DNA from: a virus
IMG/VR virus record: IMGVR_UViG_3300005525_000955
Span: 1-22,308 of that record
Strand: one strand, 5' to 3'
DNA: 22,308 nucleotides
This document shows positions 3,410 to 21,684 of the stretch, piece after piece. Position 1 is the first letter of the stretch. Each line of letters begins with the position of its first letter. The translations under genes were made by a program, and so were the position numbers. Under the pieces are notes generated by a model. The model was not told the origin of the DNA and did no database searches. It saw nothing but the letters and a program-made list of their open reading frames with translations.

Positions 3410-3615
3410 CCGCCTGTCAAGTTATCGCACTGGAGGAGAATCTACCTAGGTTCAAGGCCCTCGATGACATCGCCAAAGGAAACTATGACCCCACCAACCA
3501 TTCCGAGGTGTATCGGCTTTGGTTGGTGGCCTACGAGGACGAAGACCAAGCACGTCGAGCCCAGTCCCAAGCCGTCCAAAACCTAATCGACAAAACTTGC
3601 GGGAAGCTTCCATGA
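3355..3615 (+). CDS. -1 frame extension of the 3068 gene (frameshift product C-terminus)
   Basis: The open frame runs from the slippery site to TGA 3613-3615. It encodes about 86 residues, including REYGINAFELTACQVIALEE and YRLWLVAYEDEDQARRAQSQ. It has no ATG; the only starts are TTG codons (3313, 3406) without a convincing ribosome-binding site, although TTG 3406 overlaps the upstream stop as TTGA and could be coupled. The composition is that of a real helical protein. The stop overlaps the portal ATG by 4 nt (ATGA). The preferred reading is translation by -1 frameshifting from the 3068 gene. The alternative is one ancestral gene broken by an indel in the A run. Confidence 0.65.
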   Translation, partial: HARRATLCREYGINAFELTACQVIALEENLPRFKALDDIAKGNYDPTNHSEVYRLWLVAYEDEDQARRAQSQAVQNLIDKTCGKLP

Positions 3616-6600
3616 CCCTGAACACGAACAAACGACCGGCCAAGACTAGGGGCTATCAACCGCTTCAATCGTGGTGGCTTCGGCGGCATCAAAAGCTTCC
3701 ACTACTGACCTTCCCAATCATCGAAATGATCCTTTGCGATGAGACAATCCAAATTGGATTAGCGGCAAGGCGGGCAGTCCTTCAGGGCGTCGAGTTCGGG
3801 TACGACAAGAACGGCACTTGGACCCCCGGGGTGCAATGCTCCAACGCCATGGTGGGCGAATGGGTGCTTCGTCAAGTCAAGAAGCTTTGGTCCTGCGCTA
3901 TCGAACATATTGCAAGCGCTCAAGTGTATGGATGGGCGGGCATGGAGGTGGTATGGGAGCGGTCCCCCGAAACCAACCTTTGGGAAGTGTCGGGGATCGA
4001 AGAACGTCACGCAAACGATACCAGGGTGATCATCGGTGGCGACACCGGGCGACCATGCGGGGTTCGATTTTTGAAGGTCAAGGGGGCCGAGAACGGATAC
4101 TTGGATCTTCACTTCCCCGAATCGTTTTTTCACGCTTACAACCCCAACCCTGGAGAATGGTACGGTCATACTGTTTTGCATGGTTCCTATCGATCTTGGG
4201 CGGACAAGCACCTAGACGGCGGGGCGGTCGACGTGCGAAGGCTCTTCATGCACAAAGATGCCTATGGTGGGGCCGATTTGACCTATCCCGAAGGATCGAC
4301 CGACATCGGGACAGTGGACAATCCCTTGGAAGTGCCAAACCGGGAGCTAGCCCGGGAAATTGTCGAGCAGATTGAAGCGGGTGGAGTGACAACCACCCCC
4401 GCCCAGTACGACGACCGAGGGAACCCACTTTGGAAATTGACGCGGGCAACAGTCCCATCGAATCCGTCCCATATCCTGCAATACCCAGGGGACCTAGATG
4501 GGGAAATGCTTCGGGGCATATTTGTCCCTGATGGGGTCCTCAAGGCCGATGATACGGGATCCTGGCAAGGGAGGCTGATTCCCATGGGGATCCTCTACGC
4601 GAACTTAGACCCATGGGTTGGATCCATCCTTCGGGACATGCGAGAACAAATCTTGGAACCTGGGATCCTCAACAACTGGGGCCAAGCGATCCCGTTTGTG
4701 TTGGAGCATCAGCCTTTGGCCGATCAAGCTCTGGAGCAGCAGAAGCAACAACAACCACAACAGGCAATAGATAAAAATAGCATCATGGACATGCTCAAGG
4801 GCACTGACCCGGGCAACGACGACGGATTTGAAGATGGGCTTGAAGAAGATCCGAACCGGAACCAAGACCCGACCAAGATGGGTCTACTTGACCCCGTGGC
4901 AGCCGTGGGGGAAGGCGTATTGAGCGCGGCGGGCATTGTTGCGGCGGCAAAAGCCGCGATGAAATCAAAACGAATGGGGTGGGTGCCATACAAAGGTGAC
5001 CGTGGCGGTCGGGGGTGGCGAAATGCCGATACCAACGAAGTTCGATATCAAGAAGACCGCCCTATAGACTTAGGTGTCTCGACGCTTCGCAAAGAAACCC
5101 GGAATCCAATACTGGGTAGGCACGAAAGCAAAATTGAATACGCCGACCAAAAAGCCGATCCGATTAAGCCCCCGAAAAAACCGATCACTTTGAAAAAAGA
5201 TGGAGAGGCTATGGATCGGGCCCAAGTCATGGCCGATATTCTTCAATCGCTTTACGGGAACGAAGCCGAATCACTATTCGACAAAATTTTCGGGGCCAAA
5301 GTCAAAAGATTGGCTTCTTGGAACTCGATTGACCACCCCCGTGGTCCAGATGGCCGGTTTATCGAAAAGAACAGCCCGGAAGCGGTAGCGGCAGCAAGGG
5401 GGGTTATTGTCGAAACACTCAAGCAAGCCCGGACTCCCGGGACCTTGAAGAAAGTGACCGAACATCTTTCCATTTTGACTTCATCCCAACTGAGAGACAT
5501 CCAACGAGAGCATGGAATCAAAGCCGGTGGGGCTAAAGCTGAGTTGGTTCAAAAAATCGCCGATAGACTTCACGGAAAACCCGGTCAAAGCGATGAAGAC
5601 GCTAACCCAAACCGAGAAGACGGTACGCCAAAAGCCCCAAGCAATGAAGACGTGTTTACAGTACCCACCGCAAGCCTGAAAGTGGATCCAAGCCGGTTTC
5701 AATACAAGGTGAAGGACATTGGCGAGGAGGGTGTTACCAACGAGCTAAAGGGGGTATCGAAGTGGAACCCCGAGCTAGCCGGATCTTTGCTTGTGTGGCG
5801 GGACCCTAAAGATGGTCAAGATTATGTAGTTAACGGCCACCACAGGCACCACCTAGCCAAGAGGCTTGGGGCCGACAAGCTGAACGTCCGGTATATCAAC
5901 GCGGCGGACCACGTCGAAGCGAGGGCCCGTGGCGCACTGGCAAACATTGCCGAAGGCCGAGGGTCTGCGATCGATGCAGCTAAGTATCTCAAAGATTCAA
6001 AGCAGACGGTAGAACACCTGAAGGATGCGGGCGTAAGCATGTCCGGAAAAGTGGCCGCCGACGCGGCTATCTTGAAGGACCTATCCAATAAGCCTTTCCA
6101 GATGGTCACCGAAGGCCGCTTGGAAGAGTCCAAAGCCTTGGCCGTGGCCAAGCACCTAAAGGACCATGGGCTTCAAGAAAAGCTCTTCAAGAAGCTAGAG
6201 GACCGGGAGGAAGAGGGTAAGGAGTGGTCGACCCGTGAGATTGAAACAGCGGCCAAGAAGATGGCCAGCGCTGGTAAGTACGTCGAAAAGGGGCAAGACC
6301 TATTCGGGTCCTTCGAGGAAGAGCATTCGACATTTGACCAAGAAGTGGAGTTGGAAAGCCATGTAAGCCGGATGCTCCAGCAGGAGGCCAACGACTATCG
6401 AGCCGTCGCGAACAAACGCCGGGCGGACCGAGTGGCCGACGCGGGCAACGTGTTGGCAGTCGATGAAAACGCCATTCGGGCCAACCAAGCCGATAACGCG
6501 ATAAGCGAATTTGATCGAGAGTCCCGGCTACGCGGGGACGTGTCCGACGCTATCCAGTCCTTTGCTGGCGAATATGCCAAGGCTACCAACAAAAAGCAAA

Positions 6601-7598
6601 AGGACGAAATCAAGTCCCAGGTACTAGGGGCCATTAGGGCCTTGATCGGGGTACCAAAAGAAGGCGACCGAAACCCGAGTACGGGCATGGTTTACCGGGG
6701 AGGGCAATGGCTACGGGATGGCGAGACCAGAAAGACGATCGAAAAGGCCACGTTAAGCGAAGCGGAGCGCGATTGGCCCCAAAAGCGTATCAACTACTTG
6801 AAGCAGTACGGAAAGAGCGATTCCAACGGTGATTTACGCCACGTCGTACTTAATACGGACGATTGGCGGCCCGAGTTCAAACAGTACGTCGGGACCAACG
6901 CGGCGGACGTTCACGAAGCTTCAAGCTACTTGAATAAGAAAATGTATGATGAGGCCTTGCAAAAATTAAAGGGCAAGGGTAATAACAAATTGATGATTCT
7001 TGCGGGTGGTGGGGGGTCCGGGAAAGGGACCTACACCAAGCGGCGGAACGATATGGACCAATATCCGTTGGTATTGGATCAGGCTTCCGATAGATACCAC
7101 AAGCTGGAAGAAAAAATCAACGACGCCATCAAAAACGGCTACACCCCCGAGCATATATTCGTCGATCGACCAGTACGGGGGGCTTTTGAAGGGATCGTTG
7201 GCCGTGCGATGAATGCGTACAAGAGGGGCGAAACTCCACGGACCGTGCCCTTGGCAATTGCTTTGGAAGCAAATCTCGGGGCCCGGAAGGCTACCTTGGA
7301 GCTACTTCAAAAGCGTCCGGACGTTTATTTCGAAGTGTTTGACAATACGGGCGAAACCGAAGAGTCCCGTAGGACCATTAACGATAGGAACCAAGCGGCC
7401 CAACATCTTCAACGGCGGATAGCCGAAGAGGATGCAGGCCGGGAGGGCATACTAGATACGTGGCGAAAAAAGATAGCGGACCGCGTATTGGCGGGGGAAA
7501 TCCCGGACCATATTGCCGAAGGGTTCTTCCCCGATGAAGATTTTGTGACCAAGGTTAGAGCGGGTAACTTCCGTAAAGAAAGTGAAGGTGTGGCATGA
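3612..7598 (+). CDS. Portal protein fused to SAP-like, ParB-like and zeta-kinase-like domains
   Basis: The start at ATG 3612 overlaps the preceding TGA, giving 1328 residues. Residues 1 to about 373 resemble Mu gp29/DUF935-type portals, which form the dodecameric DNA channel of the capsid; segments such as FPESFFHAYNPNPGEWYGH, VDVRRLFMHKDAYGGADL and VPNRELAREIVEQ support this. Then come a Gln-rich linker (about 375-387), a WVPYKGDRGGRGW motif (about 457), DHPRGPDGRF (574) with a SAP/Rho-N-like helix-loop-helix (about 617-655), and a ParB-like core with NGHHR at 741-745. A long charged helical part follows, then a P-loop domain with Walker A GGGGSGKGT (about 1132-1140, K1138), resembling zeta-toxin kinases. 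Portals are usually 400-550 residues, so this is an extreme extension. The portal call is fairly sure and the domain calls are by motif. Delivery of the extra domains into the host is inference. Confidence 0.8.
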   Translation: MTLNTNKRPAKTRGYQPLQSWWLRRHQKLPLLTFPIIEMILCDETIQIGLAARRAVLQGVEFGYDKNGTWTPGVQCSNAMVGEWVLRQVKKLWSCAIEHIASAQVYGWAGMEVVWERSPETNLWEVSGIEERHANDTRVIIGGDTGRPCGVRFLKVKGAENGYLDLHFPESFFHAYNPNPGEWYGHTVLHGSYRSWADKHLDGGAVDVRRLFMHKDAYGGADLTYPEGSTDIGTVDNPLEVPNRELAREIVEQIEAGGVTTTPAQYDDRGNPLWKLTRATVPSNPSHILQYPGDLDGEMLRGIFVPDGVLKADDTGSWQGRLIPMGILYANLDPWVGSILRDMREQILEPGILNNWGQAIPFVLEHQPLADQALEQQKQQQPQQAIDKNSIMDMLKGTDPGNDDGFEDGLEEDPNRNQDPTKMGLLDPVAAVGEGVLSAAGIVAAAKAAMKSKRMGWVPYKGDRGGRGWRNADTNEVRYQEDRPIDLGVSTLRKETRNPILGRHESKIEYADQKADPIKPPKKPITLKKDGEAMDRAQVMADILQSLYGNEAESLFDKIFGAKVKRLASWNSIDHPRGPDGRFIEKNSPEAVAAARGVIVETLKQARTPGTLKKVTEHLSILTSSQLRDIQREHGIKAGGAKAELVQKIADRLHGKPGQSDEDANPNREDGTPKAPSNEDVFTVPTASLKVDPSRFQYKVKDIGEEGVTNELKGVSKWNPELAGSLLVWRDPKDGQDYVVNGHHRHHLAKRLGADKLNVRYINAADHVEARARGALANIAEGRGSAIDAAKYLKDSKQTVEHLKDAGVSMSGKVAADAAILKDLSNKPFQMVTEGRLEESKALAVAKHLKDHGLQEKLFKKLEDREEEGKEWSTREIETAAKKMASAGKYVEKGQDLFGSFEEEHSTFDQEVELESHVSRMLQQEANDYRAVANKRRADRVADAGNVLAVDENAIRANQADNAISEFDRESRLRGDVSDAIQSFAGEYAKATNKKQKDEIKSQVLGAIRALIGVPKEGDRNPSTGMVYRGGQWLRDGETRKTIEKATLSEAERDWPQKRINYLKQYGKSDSNGDLRHVVLNTDDWRPEFKQYVGTNAADVHEASSYLNKKMYDEALQKLKGKGNNKLMILAGGGGSGKGTYTKRRNDMDQYPLVLDQASDRYHKLEEKINDAIKNGYTPEHIFVDRPVRGAFEGIVGRAMNAYKRGETPRTVPLAIALEANLGARKATLELLQKRPDVYFEVFDNTGETEESRRTINDRNQAAQHLQRRIAEEDAGREGILDTWRKKIADRVLAGEIPDHIAEGFFPDEDFVTKVRAGNFRKESEGVA

Positions 7599-12981: not shown

Positions 12982-15018
12982 ATGTCGGACCATCGGCCCA
13001 GGATGAAGCCGAAGTTCGCGTCGCGATCGATTCGAATGGGTGTTCTCAAGCCTGAAACGCCAGTGGGGACGCAAAAAGTTTGGGGCGGAACAGAAGTTTT
13101 CCAGTCCCTACCATATCAAGGTTACCCTTCGCCAGCTACGGACTTCGTTCCGGGCGCTGGTCGGTACTATGATTCCTTTTCGCCCACCTATGTAACAGGG
13201 AAAGTTTTTATCGAATGCGTACGGCAATCCAATTCACAACTTAGGGAGACCATCTTAGGGGCAGACATTCAACGGTTCACGGATCTCGGCGGGCTTGTGT
13301 TTTCATGGAGTCCATCCGCTTCATCAACGGGAAGCGTAGATTTTTGGAACCGATCTTCCACCCCGATAGGAACCATTGAAATACTGAAAGATATTCGTAA
13401 TTTTGATACTCCGATTAGCGAGCTTTCAGTACCCGATGCGGACCAAAACGGCACCCCTCAAGGTCGCTATTGGGCCGAGACATGGGAAGACCGTTGGGGG
13501 GACTACACCAACACCACCACGCTTCACAGGTTTCAATTCTCTTGCAGCATTGGGCTATCGTCCGCCACCAATGTTCTAGCGCCGAGAGTAGGGTTTCGAA
13601 GTTCCGGGTATCGAAAACGTATGGCTTGGTTCGATTTGGCCAACGGGATCAAGCTTCTTTCGATGGAAGCGGCCACTAAATTCATACTTCACACTACCGT
13701 CAACCTTTGGGAGCGAAACCGCCAATGGGAACGGTTTCCCAGTACAGGCATCCCCCACGTTCTTCGTGAAGGCGAATCCGCTACACAGTACTTGGCGGAC
13801 TATAACTGGGGCCCAAATCTACCCGCAGGGGCAGTATTCCCAACGTGGGTTGACGGAGCTTTTCCGCCGTCGGCTCAAAAGACTTTTTTGGACAGCTTTA
13901 AGGCGGCTTTTGTCGACAACGACACGGCCACGATGACAACCTTGGCAACGCAAGCTTTACAAAGGTCGGTAGCCCTTGGACCCGTAGAAGCTTTCCCGAC
14001 TCAGTCCCGCTACCACCTTCATCGGATGCGGTTCCCGTGCCCTCAGCCAACCTATGAAGGATCGCCACCGAGGGACATCGGCCTAACTTGGATGCAGTTA
14101 CCCAGAAGGATCGAACATAGGCCGCCCGACACTTGGACCCTAATCAACACCATAGACAAAATACACACTCAAAGCTCTCCAGAAGATCGAGTAGTCACTT
14201 ACCCAAATGCAGGAAACGAAAGTCTAGTTGAACGGGATTTTCAATCTCCCTCGCTTGTTTATGACGTCGCTATCAGGGGCGTCCGAGCCAATGAAGGTCA
14301 AGGCCTTGGAACAGAACAAGAGATAGGGACGGGGTTTCCCCATCCCACGGTACCCGTAGAGGCGTTTTCGCAAACGCTACGAACAGCGCGCGACGAATAC
14401 CGGACCTACTCTCGAACGGCGGCCCCGGCGATGCTTGTGGACCCCTTGCCAAACGTGGTGAGATGGATCCAAGAGGGTTCAACCCGGGTTATACCAACCT
14501 CGATTCTCCCTCTAAGCGGGACAGGGACCTACGAGCCAGTGAGTTATAGGTCTCGATTGAATAAAATACTTGGAAGCACTGGAATGGTTAGCGGAACATC
14601 GCCAATCGACCAGATACATCTAGGTTTACCCGACACGGGCCCGTATTACTTAAACCCCAGGTATGTTCCATCGGGCCTAGTAGTGGAGGGATGGATTGGG
14701 GGGCAACAAAAGCCAACCGCCCCAGACCGGTCATTTACGTTGTTGCCGGGGCAACATTTTATTCCCTATGCACCCTTTGAATTCCCGATTTCCCCGACAA
14801 TCATCAACCCTTTCTTGTATCGAAAAATGCGATCTACAAGCGGATCTTCGCCACTTCCTGAAGGACTTGTGGAACTGTTTTTTGATCGCCCTCAGCAAAG
14901 ATTCATTTTGTTTATTCGCCAAGGTTGGTCCGGCTCTTTCGATTTTCAATACAAGATCCCGGGCTTCTACGCCATTTCCGAGCCGATTACGATCACGGTG
15001 TCTATCCCAGAAGTCTAG
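12982..15018 (+). CDS. Uncharacterised virion protein (678 aa), last gene of the virion operon
   Basis: ATG 12982 follows directly on the preceding stop. The sequence is rich in Pro, Ser, Thr, Tyr and Trp with little predicted coiled coil, suggesting an extended beta-structured protein such as a tail, fibre-associated or decoration protein. There are no collagen repeats, hydrolase motifs or membrane segments. It ends ITVSIPEV, and its last 17 nt overlap the 3' end of the convergent integrase gene, so no terminator separates the two. It shares no obvious motif with its neighbour, though the two lie in one translationally coupled pair. Function is unknown. Confidence 0.6.
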   Translation: MSDHRPRMKPKFASRSIRMGVLKPETPVGTQKVWGGTEVFQSLPYQGYPSPATDFVPGAGRYYDSFSPTYVTGKVFIECVRQSNSQLRETILGADIQRFTDLGGLVFSWSPSASSTGSVDFWNRSSTPIGTIEILKDIRNFDTPISELSVPDADQNGTPQGRYWAETWEDRWGDYTNTTTLHRFQFSCSIGLSSATNVLAPRVGFRSSGYRKRMAWFDLANGIKLLSMEAATKFILHTTVNLWERNRQWERFPSTGIPHVLREGESATQYLADYNWGPNLPAGAVFPTWVDGAFPPSAQKTFLDSFKAAFVDNDTATMTTLATQALQRSVALGPVEAFPTQSRYHLHRMRFPCPQPTYEGSPPRDIGLTWMQLPRRIEHRPPDTWTLINTIDKIHTQSSPEDRVVTYPNAGNESLVERDFQSPSLVYDVAIRGVRANEGQGLGTEQEIGTGFPHPTVPVEAFSQTLRTARDEYRTYSRTAAPAMLVDPLPNVVRWIQEGSTRVIPTSILPLSGTGTYEPVSYRSRLNKILGSTGMVSGTSPIDQIHLGLPDTGPYYLNPRYVPSGLVVEGWIGGQQKPTAPDRSFTLLPGQHFIPYAPFEFPISPTIINPFLYRKMRSTSGSSPLPEGLVELFFDRPQQRFILFIRQGWSGSFDFQYKIPGFYAISEPITITVSIPEV

Positions 15019-15868
15019 GTGGGAGCCTTCCAGCCCGAATAGATCGCGAATCGATATAACTTGCCCTGACGGTCCGAGTTCCGCCGACGTGACCCAAAGA
15101 CTCAGCGGCGGCGTGTTCGCCTTCGGCCTCATAGATGGCCGTGGCGTGAGTCTTGCGCAGGGTCCCGAGCCCTTGACCCCGCGACCGCCGAAACCCGCTT
15201 AGGGAAGCCGTCGAAAACAAAAGCAACTCCAGTTTGCGCATACCACCTTTTCCTAGTGGAAAAACCCTGGAACGGGTGGGCCTCTCGATTCTCAACAGGC
15301 TTTGAATCGAGTCTGTTGAGAGTACGGCCGTGTGGGGCTTGTGGGTTTTGTGTTGAGTGATAATGACGCGGCTGGATTCCAAATCGACATCGTCCCATCG
15401 CAGCATTCGTAAATCGGTCGGCCTTAGCCCAGTGTCGTATCCCACTTGGATCCAAGCTACTAGAAGATCGGACCGCAAAAGGCCCATTTTCAATTTTCCT
15501 TCCACCCTGGAAGCCGATTCCAGAAGGGTGGAAACTTGGTTAGATGACCATGCTCGAACCGGACGCCGATCAATTTTCGGAGACCGAAGCTTTCGAATGT
15601 CGAACGGAGGGCAAAGGCCCTCAGACACCGCAAAATTCCAAAGCCGGGTCAAACTGACTCGGTAATTTCGAACCGTAGTTCCCGTAAGTCCTTTGGCTTT
15701 GAGCGCGGCCAAAAATTGATTCACACAATCCACGGTCAAATCGTGAACTTCGGCTTCTCTTCCGAGATACCCCCCGAACTTTTCTAAAGCCCGGCCATAT
15801 TGGGCCAGCGTACAGGGTTCAAGTTCCACTTCTACTGAAAGGCGGTTCAATAAATGCTTCACCATCAT
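15002..15868 (-). CDS. int: Tyrosine recombinase (phage integrase)
   Basis: The 288-residue protein has an N-terminal SAM-like core-binding domain (about 15-90) and a C-terminal catalytic domain. The catalytic residues visible are R149 (TGLRPTDLRML), K174 (QHKTHKPH), R238 (LRKTHAT), H260 (LGHVGG) and the nucleophile Y271 (ASYID). The His of the usual HxxR box is replaced by Gly235 (GTLR). No arm-binding N-terminal domain is obvious. The gene runs away from a tRNA-Asp fragment about 100 bp upstream, the standard int-attP arrangement, and an excisionase-like gene lies beyond the att site. It should catalyse site-specific integration and excision at a host tRNA-Asp gene. ATGs at 15868 and 15865 are both possible starts. 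Confidence 0.92.
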   Translation of the reverse strand: MMVKHLLNRLSVEVELEPCTLAQYGRALEKFGGYLGREAEVHDLTVDCVNQFLAALKAKGLTGTTVRNYRVSLTRLWNFAVSEGLCPPFDIRKLRSPKIDRRPVRAWSSNQVSTLLESASRVEGKLKMGLLRSDLLVAWIQVGYDTGLRPTDLRMLRWDDVDLESSRVIITQHKTHKPHTAVLSTDSIQSLLRIERPTRSRVFPLGKGGMRKLELLLFSTASLSGFRRSRGQGLGTLRKTHATAIYEAEGEHAAAESLGHVGGTRTVRASYIDSRSIRAGRLPPRLLG

Positions 15869-15970: not shown

Positions 15971-16018
15971 ACCGGACTGTCGATCCGGAGGTTGCGGGTT
16001 CGAGCCCCGTCGACCTCG
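15971..16018 (+). other. attP core: 3' fragment of tRNA-Asp (anticodon GUC)
   Basis: The anticodon stem CCGGA (15972-15976) pairs with TCCGG (15984-15988) around the loop CTGTCGA, giving anticodon GTC at 15979-15981. A T-arm follows: GCGGG, loop TTCGAGC, CCCGT, at 15994-16010. The 3' acceptor strand is CGACCTC (16011-16017) with discriminator G at 16018. The partner GAGGTCG and a canonical D-arm are absent upstream, so this is not a whole tRNA gene. A 3' tRNA fragment between an integrase gene and an excisionase-like gene is what an attP identical to a tRNA-borne attB looks like; integration would rebuild the tRNA. Confidence 0.85.
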
Positions 16019-16020
16019 CT

Positions 16021-16375: not shown

Positions 16376-16578
16376 CCCAATACCGGCAAGCGAAGTTCTG
16401 TAGCCCGAATCGGGCAAGGTGTTTGCTTGTGATCCCGTGTGATCAATCCGGTTGGTAAGTGGGTCACTTGGAAGGCGTGGAAACCGACCAAGTGGCTTGA
16501 TGCAAAACGGCTTCTAGGACGTTCTCGTCCGACGGCCACTTTGTGGTTTTAGTGTCGCATTGCGACGAAGGGGCTACC
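16376..16578 (+). promoter_or_regulatory. Hairpin-rich leader of the csrA-like gene
   Basis: About 200 nt without a gene. It holds a 13-bp palindrome GCCCGAATCGGGC (16403-16415) and two TGTGATC boxes one helical turn apart (16428-16434, 16438-16444). A short hairpin AAGTG/CACTT (16457-16469) competes with a longer stem GTCACTTGG (16463-16471) with CCAAGTGGC (16488-16496), whose loop contains GGA-type sequence. Further hairpins are GGACG/CGTCC (16517-16530) and GTCGC/GCGAC (16554-16566), the last 1 nt before the AAGGGG ribosome-binding site. This could be a regulated or self-binding CsrA leader; the pairings are seen, the function is inferred. Confidence 0.45.
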
Positions 16579-16959
16579 ATGCTCGTTCTTTCCCGCCGGG
16601 TAGGCGGATCTTTTTCTATTGGTGACGAAGTGACCGTCACCCTTGTTTCAGCCAAGTCGGGGAGTGCCAAGATCGGCATCGAAGCCCCCAGGAGTTGGCA
16701 AATTGTCCGAGATGACGCGAAGCGGAGTGATCCGGTCAAGCGAATTGATTCCGGGGTCCGGGCGGATAAAGAGGCTATGGCCTTTCGTCTGCTTGAGCAT
16801 GTATTTGCTTCCACCCTTGTGCTTCAGCCCTTCTCGGAAACTTACGACCAAGCTTTGGTTCGAAGTGAAGTTTGGTCGCGGGTGAAAGCCTTCTTTCACA
16901 ACGAGTTGCTGGAGCAGATGGCCCGCGAAGCCTCGATGACCGTGGAAGGAGGTGGTTGA
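16579..16959 (+). CDS. csrA: CsrA/RsmA-like RNA-binding regulator with C-terminal extension
   Basis: ATG 16579 follows AAGGGG (16568-16573). Residues 1-47 match CsrA closely: MLVLSRRVGGSFSIGDEVTV, then KIGIEAPRSWQIVRDD. The RNA-binding positions L4, R6 and the Arg equivalent to E. coli R44 are present. CsrA dimers bind GGA motifs near ribosome-binding sites and control translation or mRNA decay. Cellular CsrA is about 60-75 residues; this one has 126, with an added helical part (SETYDQALVRSEVWSRVKAF) of unknown role. Phage-borne CsrA could reprogramme host translation during infection or regulate phage mRNAs. The stop at 16957-16959 abuts the next ATG. Confidence 0.85.
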   Translation: MLVLSRRVGGSFSIGDEVTVTLVSAKSGSAKIGIEAPRSWQIVRDDAKRSDPVKRIDSGVRADKEAMAFRLLEHVFASTLVLQPFSETYDQALVRSEVWSRVKAFFHNELLEQMAREASMTVEGGG

Positions 16960-18907: not shown

Positions 18908-19483
18908 ATGAGTGCAGTACAGCAAACTTCAACCCGAGTTGTGACCCCGATCGCGCGTTTGAGCTATCCGTATTTGTTCAAGCCCTCGAAGCCAATGGCG
19001 GACGGGGGCGAAGCAAAGTTCCAATGCGAATTGATCTTTACGAAGGAGGCGGATCTTTCGGGATTGAAGAAGGCGGTCAATCAAGCGGCGGTGGCCAAGT
19101 GGGGGTCGAACATCCCCAAGAACTTGAAGAGTCCATTTCGATCGGGTGACAAAGACCGAGAGGGCAAAGACGGTTATGAGGGGGCCATCTTCATTGGGGC
19201 CCGATCAAAGGACAAGCCCGGGGTTGTGATCGGCCAAGACCGATTGCCATGCACCAATGAAAGCGACGTTTACGGAGGTTGCTACGTGATTTGCAGCGTG
19301 ACGGCCTTTGCCTATGACACTTCGGGCAACAAGGGCGTATCTTTCGCGCTGAACAACGTGTGGAAGGTGCGAGACGGTGATCCGTTTGGGAACCGTAGAG
19401 CAGCAGACGAAGAGTTTTCGACGGTTCAAGTGGACGTTGATTCATTTGGTGACACAAGCTTTGACGTCGACGTCTTTGGCTAA
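18908..19483 (+). CDS. DUF2815 family ssDNA-binding-like protein
   Basis: ATG 18908 follows GGAGTAGGA by a short spacing, 6 nt after the DUF2800 stop. The 191-residue protein opens with a beta-rich domain (VVTPIARLSYPYLFKPSKPM, then GEAKFQCELIFTKEADLSGL). It contains FRSGDKDREGKDGYEGAIFI and FALNNVWKVRDGDPFGNRRA, segments characteristic of DUF2815, and ends in an acidic tail rich in Asp (VDVDSFGDTSFDVDVFG). An acidic C-terminus is usual for ssDNA-binding proteins that recruit partners, and the family has been compared with T7 gp2.5. It probably coats ssDNA for the polymerase encoded downstream. The tRNA-like element starts 5 nt after its stop. Confidence 0.88.
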   Translation: MSAVQQTSTRVVTPIARLSYPYLFKPSKPMADGGEAKFQCELIFTKEADLSGLKKAVNQAAVAKWGSNIPKNLKSPFRSGDKDREGKDGYEGAIFIGARSKDKPGVVIGQDRLPCTNESDVYGGCYVICSVTAFAYDTSGNKGVSFALNNVWKVRDGDPFGNRRAADEEFSTVQVDVDSFGDTSFDVDVFG

Positions 19484-19487
19484 CCGC

Positions 19488-19550
19488 AGGACCGGGGCCA
19501 ATGGTGGCCGTGGGCAATAGCCCACCGGGTTCGATTCCCGCAACGGTCCT
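19488..19550 (+). ncRNA. tRNA-like cloverleaf without a normal anticodon loop
   Basis: Four helices fold in tRNA order. They are a 7-bp acceptor-like stem AGGACCG (19488-19494) with CGGTCCT (19544-19550); a D-like arm GGCC/GGCC (19496-19509) with loop AATGGT; an anticodon-like hairpin GTGGGC/GCCCAC (19510-19525) with only four loop bases; and a T-arm CGGG, TTCGATT, CCCG (19526-19540). Length is 63 nt, with no variable loop and no usable anticodon, so it cannot be an ordinary tRNA. It fills the gap between the DUF2815 stop and the polymerase start and is followed by TTTATT. It may be an RNA-processing signal, a tRNA mimic, a degenerate tRNA, or a terminator. Confidence 0.55.
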
Positions 19551-19569
19551 TTTATTCGAAAGGACGCGC

Positions 19570-21684
19570 ATGTTTACGATTGACTTTGAAACAAGGTCCC
19601 GAGTGGATCTTTCCGATTGCGGGGCAAGCGTCTACGCGCAAAGCCCCTCCACGGAAATCCTTTGCCTAGCCTACTGGGATGGGAATCCGAAGACCGAAGT
19701 AGGGTTGTGGATCTACGGTGAACCGGCACCGATAGAGCTTCTGGAAGCTATAGAAGCCGGGGAATTGATCGAAGCCCACAATGCTGGCTTCGAGCGGCAG
19801 ATATGGCGGTGGATATGCCACGAACGCTTTGGGTGGCCTGACGTCCCCTTCGATCAATGGCGATGCACTTTAGCGGCGTGTTCGGCTCTTGGGCTCCCAA
19901 GATCCTTGGCCGACGCAGCGGCAGCACTTGGATTACCGATCAAGAAGGACACCGAAGGGCGAAAGGTGATGCTTCGGCTCTGCAAGCCGCTTCCGTCAGG
20001 GCAATTCGACAACGAACGCCATCGGCGGTTACGTCTTTACGATTACTGCAAACAAGATGTACGGGCCGAAGTGGCTTTGAGCCGAGCAATTCCGCCACTC
20101 GAAGGCCGAGAGTTGAAGTTGTGGCAGTTGGACCAGAGGATCAATCTCCGAGGCATCCCAGTCGACGTCCATGGGGTGCGTGACGCGCTCGAAGTGTTAG
20201 AGAGTCATTTAGAGGATTGCGAGTCGAGGCTTGCCAAGCTGACTGGTGGGGCCGTCAAGACACCGAAACAAGTCTCGGCAATGCGGCAATGGATTCTTGA
20301 TCGAACCGGGAAAGTGATCCCTGACTTGACGGCGGAAACGGTTCGGGTGTGGTTGGCCAAGGATATCCACGACGACGTGGCCGAAGTGCTTCAAATTCGG
20401 CAAGACACGGCCTTGGCATCGACGGCCAAGCTGAAGGCAATAGCCCAGCGTGTTGACCGGGACGGGCGAGTCCGGGGGAACTTGGTCTACCACGGGGCGG
20501 CCACGGGAAGATGGGCCGGGGCTGGGATCCAGATTCAGAACTTCCCCCGAGGGACCCTGAGCCCCAAGGAAATCGAGTTGGTTCACCGGCTCATTGCATC
20601 GCGGGATTCTGGGGTGTTTTCGCTTTTGTTCGGTTCGCCCATGGCGGCCTTGAGCAGTTCTCTGCGCTCCTTCGTCCGGGCCGAGCAGGGAAAGAAGCTT
20701 TTGGCTTGCGACTTCGCGGCCATTGAAGCCCGGGTTTTGGCTTGGTTGGCGGGAGAGCAAGAACTACTCGACACTTTTTCCGGCGGCGACGACGTCTACA
20801 AAGCCATGGCGGCCAAGATTTATTCGGTGGACGTGAGCGAAGTTACCAAGGTCCAACGGCACGTCGGCAAGACGGCGATCCTTGGACTTGGGTATGGCAT
20901 GGGGGCTCGGGCCTTCCGCGATGCTTGCGAGATGATGGCCAAGGTTACGTTGGATATGAAGATGGCCAACTTGGTGGTGAAGACCTATAGGCAAGCCAAC
21001 CCCGCAATCAAAAATTTCTGGTCCAACCTGAATGCGGCTTGCATAGAAGCGATTCGCAGCAAAGAGCCTTATCGATGCGGCCTTCTGGAAGTGACCTGCT
21101 CCGACGGTTGGCTTCGGATCGAATTGCCGAGCGGACGCAAGCTTCACTATAGAAGCCCAAAGCTTGTGCAAGTGCTGGCCCCTTGGTCCGACGGATACAC
21201 GGGCATCATCTACGGGAAGGCCGAGGACCGGACTCGATTCGAAGACATGGGGATCGAGCTTGGGGAACACAAAGGGACCCGCTTTGAAGATTGCACAGTA
21301 CCAACGCGGGTGGCAGCTTTAGCGTCAGGCCTTTTGTTTATGGAGCTTGAGCGGATGGACCCTATCTACATCGACCAGATTGAATACATGGCGGTCGATA
21401 GCACAACACGGAAATGGTCACCGACACGGACCTACGGCGGAAAACTGGTTGAGAACGTCACCCAGGCCGTGGCAAGGGACTTCCTTGCCGAAGCAATGCT
21501 CCGGGTGGAATCGAGGGGATACGCGATCATCGCCACGATTCACGACGAGATTCTAAGCGAAGTTTTCGACGAGCCAGATTGGAACTTGATGGAGTTTGAA
21601 AGCTTGATGCGGGCCGTCCCTACGTGGGGGCAGGGTTGCCCGATCGCGGTCGAAGGTTTTGTTGCCGAAAGGTACCGGAAATGA
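19570..21684 (+). CDS. Family A DNA polymerase with 3'-5' exonuclease domain (phage replicative)
   Basis: ATG 19570 follows AAAGGA (19559-19564). The in-frame ATG at 19501 would extend 23 residues into the tRNA-like element and lacks a ribosome-binding site. The 704-residue protein starts with a DnaQ-type exonuclease: D5 and E7 (IDFETRS), AHNAGFERQIW, and Y159/D163 (YCKQD). The polymerase domain has motif A with D381 and E386 (ACDFAAIEARVLAWLAGE), motif B with R430, K434 and Y442 (RHVGKTAILGLGYGMG), and motif C HDE at 658-660. All catalytic residues are present, so it should be an active proofreading replicase. Its stop overlaps the VRR-NUC start (ATGA). Confidence 0.95.
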   Translation: MFTIDFETRSRVDLSDCGASVYAQSPSTEILCLAYWDGNPKTEVGLWIYGEPAPIELLEAIEAGELIEAHNAGFERQIWRWICHERFGWPDVPFDQWRCTLAACSALGLPRSLADAAAALGLPIKKDTEGRKVMLRLCKPLPSGQFDNERHRRLRLYDYCKQDVRAEVALSRAIPPLEGRELKLWQLDQRINLRGIPVDVHGVRDALEVLESHLEDCESRLAKLTGGAVKTPKQVSAMRQWILDRTGKVIPDLTAETVRVWLAKDIHDDVAEVLQIRQDTALASTAKLKAIAQRVDRDGRVRGNLVYHGAATGRWAGAGIQIQNFPRGTLSPKEIELVHRLIASRDSGVFSLLFGSPMAALSSSLRSFVRAEQGKKLLACDFAAIEARVLAWLAGEQELLDTFSGGDDVYKAMAAKIYSVDVSEVTKVQRHVGKTAILGLGYGMGARAFRDACEMMAKVTLDMKMANLVVKTYRQANPAIKNFWSNLNAACIEAIRSKEPYRCGLLEVTCSDGWLRIELPSGRKLHYRSPKLVQVLAPWSDGYTGIIYGKAEDRTRFEDMGIELGEHKGTRFEDCTVPTRVAALASGLLFMELERMDPIYIDQIEYMAVDSTTRKWSPTRTYGGKLVENVTQAVARDFLAEAMLRVESRGYAIIATIHDEILSEVFDEPDWNLMEFESLMRAVPTWGQGCPIAVEGFVAERYRK

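Follow-up and report, generated by a model that had tools for sequence, protein, structure and literature searches.

RNase P cleaves model substrates composed of an acceptor stem, a T stem and a T loop; it contacts the T-loop elbow, and the distance from the T loop to the 5′ end is for this enzyme a conserved 12 bp (PMC11143913). In the synthetic minimal substrates AT1 and pATSer (PMC11143913, PMC12710915) a stacked 12-bp acceptor/T stem capped by a T loop is kept, the rest of the tRNA being removed or replaced. Among phage RNAs, the C4 antisense RNA of P1/P7 and M3 RNA are processed by RNase P (listed in PMC11143913). In mitochondrial tRNA punctuation, functional tRNAs with anticodons lie between coding genes, and RNase P and RNase Z cut them out. 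The Cluster K mycobacteriophages carry SAS/ESAS, a repeated intergenic leader (inverted repeat plus Shine-Dalgarno sequence, SD) before many starts (PMC3203893). Plant viruses mimic tRNAs with 3′ tRNA-like structures, which are terminal, pseudoknotted, CCA-ending and belong to RNA viruses.

The element described here occupies positions 19488-19550 (+ strand, 63 nt) of the IMG/VR virus record IMGVR_UViG_3300005525_000955 (22,308 bases; the window, meaning the whole stretch of DNA that was analyzed). Its shape places it in a widespread class of very small tRNA mimics that have no anticodon and are found between genes of many unrelated phages; they are here dubbed mini-tRNAs. Like the synthetic RNase P substrates the class has the stacked acceptor/T stem and the T-loop cap, but it is natural, intergenic and usually without encoded CCA, and the window element has in addition a D-like arm and a third hairpin. 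With the mitochondrial tRNAs the phage elements share the tRNA shape, the position between coding genes and, as we infer, the excision by RNase P and RNase Z, whereas they have no anticodon. SAS/ESAS is without a tRNA-like element; TM4, which has SAS/ESAS, scans negative, and in the window no repeat of this type (13-bp start-associated, 17-bp inverted repeats) was seen by eye. C4 and M3 are individual regulatory RNAs rather than an element that recurs from gene to gene and has a T loop and a D-loop GG, and the mini-tRNAs, in contrast to the plant virus structures, are internal in phage mRNA. There are thus precedents for tRNA punctuation, for RNase P model substrates and for tRNA mimicry by viruses, and it is the mini-tRNA class itself that is apparently undescribed: no description was found in Rfam 15 or in the open literature, a coverage that mostly excludes subscription papers and preprints.

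The Element Between the SSB and Polymerase Genes

The gene upstream of the element (18908..19483, + strand; ORF list) encodes a DUF2815/Enc34-like ssDNA-binding protein (SSB) of 191 aa (Pfam PF10991, E 4e-43) and the downstream gene (19570..21684, +) a family-A DNA polymerase of 704 aa (PF00476, E 1e-31), the equivalent ATG being the start in distant relatives. The two Pfam matches bear out the location given in an earlier note, which had been made from the letters of the sequence. The pair is preceded by a DUF2800 nuclease-like gene and followed by a VRR-NUC gene. The earlier note also had the element fitting exactly into the intergenic gap, which is not the case: it begins 4 nt past the TAA of the SSB gene and leaves 19 nt to the polymerase ATG (19570), and the polymerase SD, AAAGGA (19559..19564, +), follows about 8-9 nt behind it. 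This placement between co-directional genes, shortly past a stop codon and ahead of an SD, is that of the class. A stem-loop between element and SD is absent in the window (8 nt there), as it is in the loci L053, L211 and L231.

The predicted fold has four helices in tRNA order, with a minimum free energy of −36.1 kcal/mol for the 63-mer as compared to −25.0 ± 3.0 kcal/mol for dinucleotide shuffles (z −3.7), none of the 200 shuffles being as good. The reverse strand folds equally well, and the T loop and the D-loop GG can be read only on the + strand. The acceptor stem, described before as a perfect 7-bp helix, is one: its 5′ strand AGGACCG (19488..19494, +) pairs with the 3′ strand CGGTCCT (19544..19550, +), for which the alternative-pairing analysis finds the polymerase SD as a second partner. 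Equally as described, the D-like arm GGCC-AATGGT-GGCC (19496..19509, +) has a GG in its loop, and the anticodon-arm position is taken by a hairpin without a triplet, GTGGGC-AATA-GCCCAC (19510..19525, +; 6 bp, 4-nt loop), next to which there is no variable loop either. The T arm CGGG-TTCGATT-CCCG (19526..19540, +) has the T-loop motif common to the class; it had been called textbook, which holds for the TTCGATT loop but not for the arm, since the T stem is only 4 bp long, its fifth position being C.C, and CAA precedes the acceptor strand. This linker (19541..19543, +) forms the C.C mismatch and an AA bulge, so that T stem and acceptor amount to 4 + 7 pairs and to 12 layers only if the AA is bulged. 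Bulges of 1-2 nt at this junction also occur in other members, e.g., L284 and L265.

The element is not a canonical tRNA: it has a 4-nt loop instead of a 7-nt anticodon loop, ARAGORN called 0 tRNA genes there, and no Rfam 15 family, the tRNA family included, was reported at its gathering threshold. A permissive Rfam scan gave tRNA-Sec (RF01852) with 25.8 bits, below the gathering cut-off of 47; from both Rfam families the element differs in having neither a standard anticodon arm nor a variable loop.

Conservation in Related Viruses

The homologue search via the SSB protein yielded one close relative only, IMGVR_UViG_3300034103_001915 (L003/L004/L051, hereafter L004), with 88% amino acid identity in DUF2815 and 83% in the polymerase. 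Its element is identical to that of the window in 60 of 63 positions, a degree of conservation that 3.7% of the other 63-nt windows in the aligned region also reach. The three changes, a C-G to U-G in the D stem, an A to G in the D-like loop and one base in the loop of the third hairpin, all keep the fold; acceptor stem and third stem are invariant, and the SD is again AAAGGA. Since the third codon positions flanking the element are only 56-62% identical, the element is constrained as RNA; it is real and conserved. The earlier note had named a covariance model of the same gap in related phages as a check. What was found is one close homologue that keeps the fold, but with no compensatory change, the C-G to U-G being the only change in a pair.

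A coding function of the stretch was considered because the polymerase frame is open through it, yet in distant relatives the gene begins at the downstream ATG, and the two L004 changes that fall within this frame affect the putative start codon and one amino acid. That third positions vary freely elsewhere, unlike in the frame through the element, also counts against the coding reading.

Among 39 polymerase loci the element is otherwise absent, distant polymerase relatives included. About ten related phages (L007, L009, L012, L026, L028, L035 and others) have an intrinsic terminator in the same SSB-polymerase gap, from which it seems that the two genes need some kind of separation at this place.

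A Wider Class of Mini-tRNAs in Phages

Viral contigs were searched for a D-loop-like TGGTGG(CC) followed by GGTTCGANTCC at a spacing closer than in a real tRNA, and the flanks were then given an acceptor-stem score, with shuffled flanks as control. A score of at least 16 was reached by 48% of the viral TGGTGGCC matches (2.4% after shuffling) and by 17% of the short-gap set (2% after shuffling), whereas bacterial genome contigs showed no excess with the same pattern (2% versus 3.2%). After removal of the tRNAs called by ARAGORN, 98 elements remained in the viral loci where 20.6 were expected, as compared to 1 versus 0.6 in the genome control. False positives that were taken out are the variable arms of Leu and Ser tRNAs (L141, L219) and tRNAs with TGGTGG in the anticodon stem (L052, L059, L066); L226, which lies inside an ORF, and the doubtful L197 were left out of the examples.

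The members are mostly 39-66 nt long, which makes them the smallest natural tRNA mimics known to us. Each is made up of an acceptor stem, a D-like hairpin or bulge with a GG in it, and a T arm GGUUCGANUCC; the anticodon arm is much reduced or missing altogether, and most members are without encoded CCA. The window element has the same acceptor stem, GG-bearing D-like arm and GGUUCGANUCC T arm without an anticodon; by shape, its third hairpin is missing from most relatives. In L182 (45 nt, no anticodon arm) the element reads GGAGTGC-GGTC-TGGT-GGCC-TA-TCGGG-TTCGATT-CCCGA-GCACTCC, and in L516 (42 nt) the D loop has shrunk to a bulge. T stem and acceptor together make 12 layers in 52 of the 98 elements and in 22% of the shuffled ones, the comparison that matters because the scorer restricts the possible stem lengths; combinations of 5+7, 6+6 and 7+5 compensate one another. 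The class examples tested were not matched to known families by ARAGORN and Rfam, except for one copy in L284, which ARAGORN called an undetermined tRNA.

A covariance model (R1) was built from seven sequences, and its 52 best matches gave the alignment A4. In A4, whose counts lean towards the modeled structure because it was fitted to that structure and its sequences were partly picked for acceptor pairing, 92% of the cells are paired, both sides change at 12 of 15 pairs, and the covariation score is 0.745; shuffling gives 0.166, and sliding the partners gives no more than 0.144. The independent checks are the genome-contig control and the mycobacteriophages Fowlmouth and Cuke. A two-arm model, R2, has 0 matches at E ≤ 0.01 in the window or in L004; the window element is out of its reach because the extra 16-nt third hairpin is not in the model. 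Membership of the window element is therefore claimed not from covariance models but from shape, placement and the Fowlmouth/Cuke comparison given below. In L286 about ten R1 matches lie between 7380 and 9037 (+) at a spacing of about 120 nt, with no ARAGORN tRNA among them; a tandem array of tRNA-like elements is possible there.

The number of copies in one phage can reach about a dozen; most of them lie from gene to gene, and a hairpin and a ribosome-binding site often come next. In L305, a 60.5-kb record with 10 R2 copies, about nine genes in a row are arranged as stop codon, 39-47-nt element, hairpin, SD and ATG. L299, L284, L341, L255 and L211 have a similar layout with 2-4 copies, the leader hairpin not being present in all of them; a test for this hairpin at 16 loci gave a moderate result, 6 having p ≤ 0.05. 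ORF-based placement statistics over all loci are noisy, as many spurious GC-rich ORFs overlap the elements, and the statement on placement therefore rests on annotated Fowlmouth and Cuke and on loci read by hand.

A BLAST search among named phages found no relatives of L262, L254, L272, L315 and L211. Members are present in unannotated gaps of Lactobacillus phage phiPYB5 and Clostridioides phage phiC2. In phiPYB5 (L475, 1867-2135) three elements with T arms stand in a row ahead of the terminase small subunit, and Lactobacillus phage LFP01 (L477) has a degenerate element at a comparable place. On the minus strand of L060 (at 6998 of the reversed locus) a 57-nt anticodon-less element has CTGACA-16-TACAAT upstream and TCCA after the acceptor, and from this sequence context it may be a free-standing gene.

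The Mycobacteriophages Fowlmouth and Cuke

Fowlmouth (NC_048734) and Cuke (NC_048696) are cultured mycobacteriophages with complete genomes, in which most gaps of 80-120 nt contain an element. The scanner found 13 coding-strand matches in Fowlmouth and 15 in Cuke, including one and two ordinary tRNAs, respectively, and no matches on the opposite strand of either. R2, which had been trained without the two phages, found 18 matches across both, every one on the coding strand, and gave 0 in TM4. Rfam 15 matched only the annotated ordinary tRNAs in Fowlmouth and Cuke. An element usually follows the stop codon by 8-10 nt and precedes the start by 42-53 nt, with a leader hairpin of 7-9 bp and an SD of the GGATGG type after the element.

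The two phages also connect the three-hairpin and two-arm forms. Between genes 50 and 51 of Fowlmouth there is a 64-nt element with three hairpins, which like the window element carries AATGGT; in the orthologous gap of Cuke (flanking proteins 80% and 52% identical) the third hairpin is lost and a 42-nt two-arm element is left, with a compensatory change of the acceptor from GCCCAC/GTGGGC in Fowlmouth to GCTCAC/GTGAGC in Cuke. In another orthologous pair neither phage has lost the third hairpin, and the changes are compensatory. The third hairpin is thus optional within the class, and since the 64-nt and the 42-nt form share one orthologous gap, the form seen in the window is tied to the class.

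Annotated genes 43 and 47 of Fowlmouth (L624, 10943-11080 and 11840-12115) overlap tRNA-like elements; gene 43 is perhaps spurious, and the annotated start of gene 47 seems to lie too far upstream.

Possible Functions

We incline to the view that the window element is a minimal processing site for RNase P and RNase Z that separates neighboring messages. Excision by one or both enzymes is favored because the class keeps the features that RNase P and RNase Z read on a precursor tRNA, namely the stacked acceptor/T stem of about 12 bp, the T loop and the D-loop GG that would lock the elbow, and drops the anticodon arm, which is read by the ribosome and the synthetases. Within the polycistronic phage mRNA, just past the stop codon, RNase P would cut at the 5′ edge of the element and/or RNase Z at its 3′ edge, so that the mRNA of the abundant ssDNA-binding protein and that of the polymerase would differ in stability and have separate ends. 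Where a stem-loop lies ahead of the SD, as in many relatives, it would at once close the new 5′ end and so protect it; the window does not have this stem-loop. The wider proposal is that viruses of bacteria have a general tRNA-punctuation system, in which purpose-built mini-tRNAs divide up the polycistronic mRNAs of phages whose hosts are unrelated, and of which the window has a three-hairpin variant. This is quite conceivable but put forward tentatively; RNase P and RNase Z would in that case excise the mini-tRNAs gene by gene, leaving 5′ ends capped by stem-loops. Recruitment of the two enzymes had already been suggested in the earlier note, and among its suggestions this one is best supported, by the intergenic placement, the 12-bp helix and the hairpin plus SD of many relatives, all of which is, however, comparative anatomy. 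Against it speak that the pairs of the window element show no compensatory change in their one close homologue, that window and L004 escape R2, that the CAA linker and the 4-bp T stem fit the 12-bp ruler only with a bulged AA, that an encoded CCA, which helps E. coli RNase P, is missing in most members, and that the downstream hairpin in the window and the element in distant polymerase relatives are lacking.

If the proposal is right, the host tRNA maturation serves phages as an mRNA-processing machine, many unannotated phage gaps of 80-120 nt are explained, and annotators gain a missing RNA class. The long-standing question of unequal gene levels within one phage operon would then be testable in M. 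smegmatis with Fowlmouth and Cuke.

The fold could also act mechanically, without any tRNA enzyme, by pausing or weak termination, as a barrier to exonucleases or by blocking ribosome run-through, and in this way uncouple SSB and polymerase. The terminators that replace the element in the same gap of related phages and the position of the elements close behind stop codons agree with such an insulator or attenuator, which we nevertheless regard as rather unlikely, because it leaves unexplained why T loop, D-loop GG and a constant 12-bp helix are kept while the stem sequences change freely. A terminator, one of the earlier suggestions, fits the window sequence poorly: only UUUU follows a stem that spans 50 nt, and the scan of the gap for an intrinsic terminator (short GC hairpin, then U run) gave none. 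The suggestion that the element is a worn-down tRNA is not supported. Phages often carry tRNAs, and the T and D motifs are tRNA-like, but a decaying captured gene with no present function is disfavored as highly improbable in view of the 60/63 conservation against 56-62% at third positions, the strong class-wide covariation, the recurrence in unrelated phages and the many gene-to-gene copies in several of them.

Two further explanations assign the element a regulatory task. An excised mini-tRNA might accumulate and act in trans as a decoy, either for EF-Tu, for an enzyme that modifies tRNAs or for a defense nuclease of the host that is directed at tRNAs. The earlier note had likewise suggested a tRNA mimic that binds a host enzyme, which may also apply. 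The elbow is intact, as is the T arm, and the sigma70-like promoter spacing directly upstream of the L060 element together with its encoded TCCA (by eye) suggests at least one free-standing gene; yet most copies are without CCA, and many copies per genome with divergent stems, mostly in tight operon gaps, suit a role in cis better, which makes the decoy improbable. Alternatively, the acceptor 3′ strand could pair either with the 5′ strand, leaving the SD free, or with the SD, switching the polymerase off, the choice being tuned by a bound protein. In nearest-neighbor folding of the window gap the acceptor stem has a probability of 0.80 and the SD hairpin one of 0.19, and L004 is predicted to favor the SD hairpin (−41.7 versus −38.8 kcal/mol, nearest-neighbor energies that exclude tertiary contacts), so that there is room for a translational switch. 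We consider it quite improbable all the same, since the alternative pairing loses strength from one relative to the other (from −10.8 to −7.0) and other members show no pairing with the SD but have a leader hairpin apart from the element.

Further Observations on the Window

An ORF at 16543-16959 (+) has a CsrA-like sequence, MLVLSRRVGGSFSIGDEVTVTLVSAKSGSAKIGI, near its N terminus. The 1359-aa ORF at 3519-7598 (+) combines a weak Mu-portal-like match, below the Pfam cut-off, with a C-terminal Zeta-toxin-like domain. At 15971-16019 (+) the window contains the 3′ half of a tRNA-Asp (anticodon arm with GTC, T arm and acceptor 3′ strand), which adjoins a tyrosine integrase gene (15002-15868, −); it is probably the core of the attachment site and as such a clue to the host.
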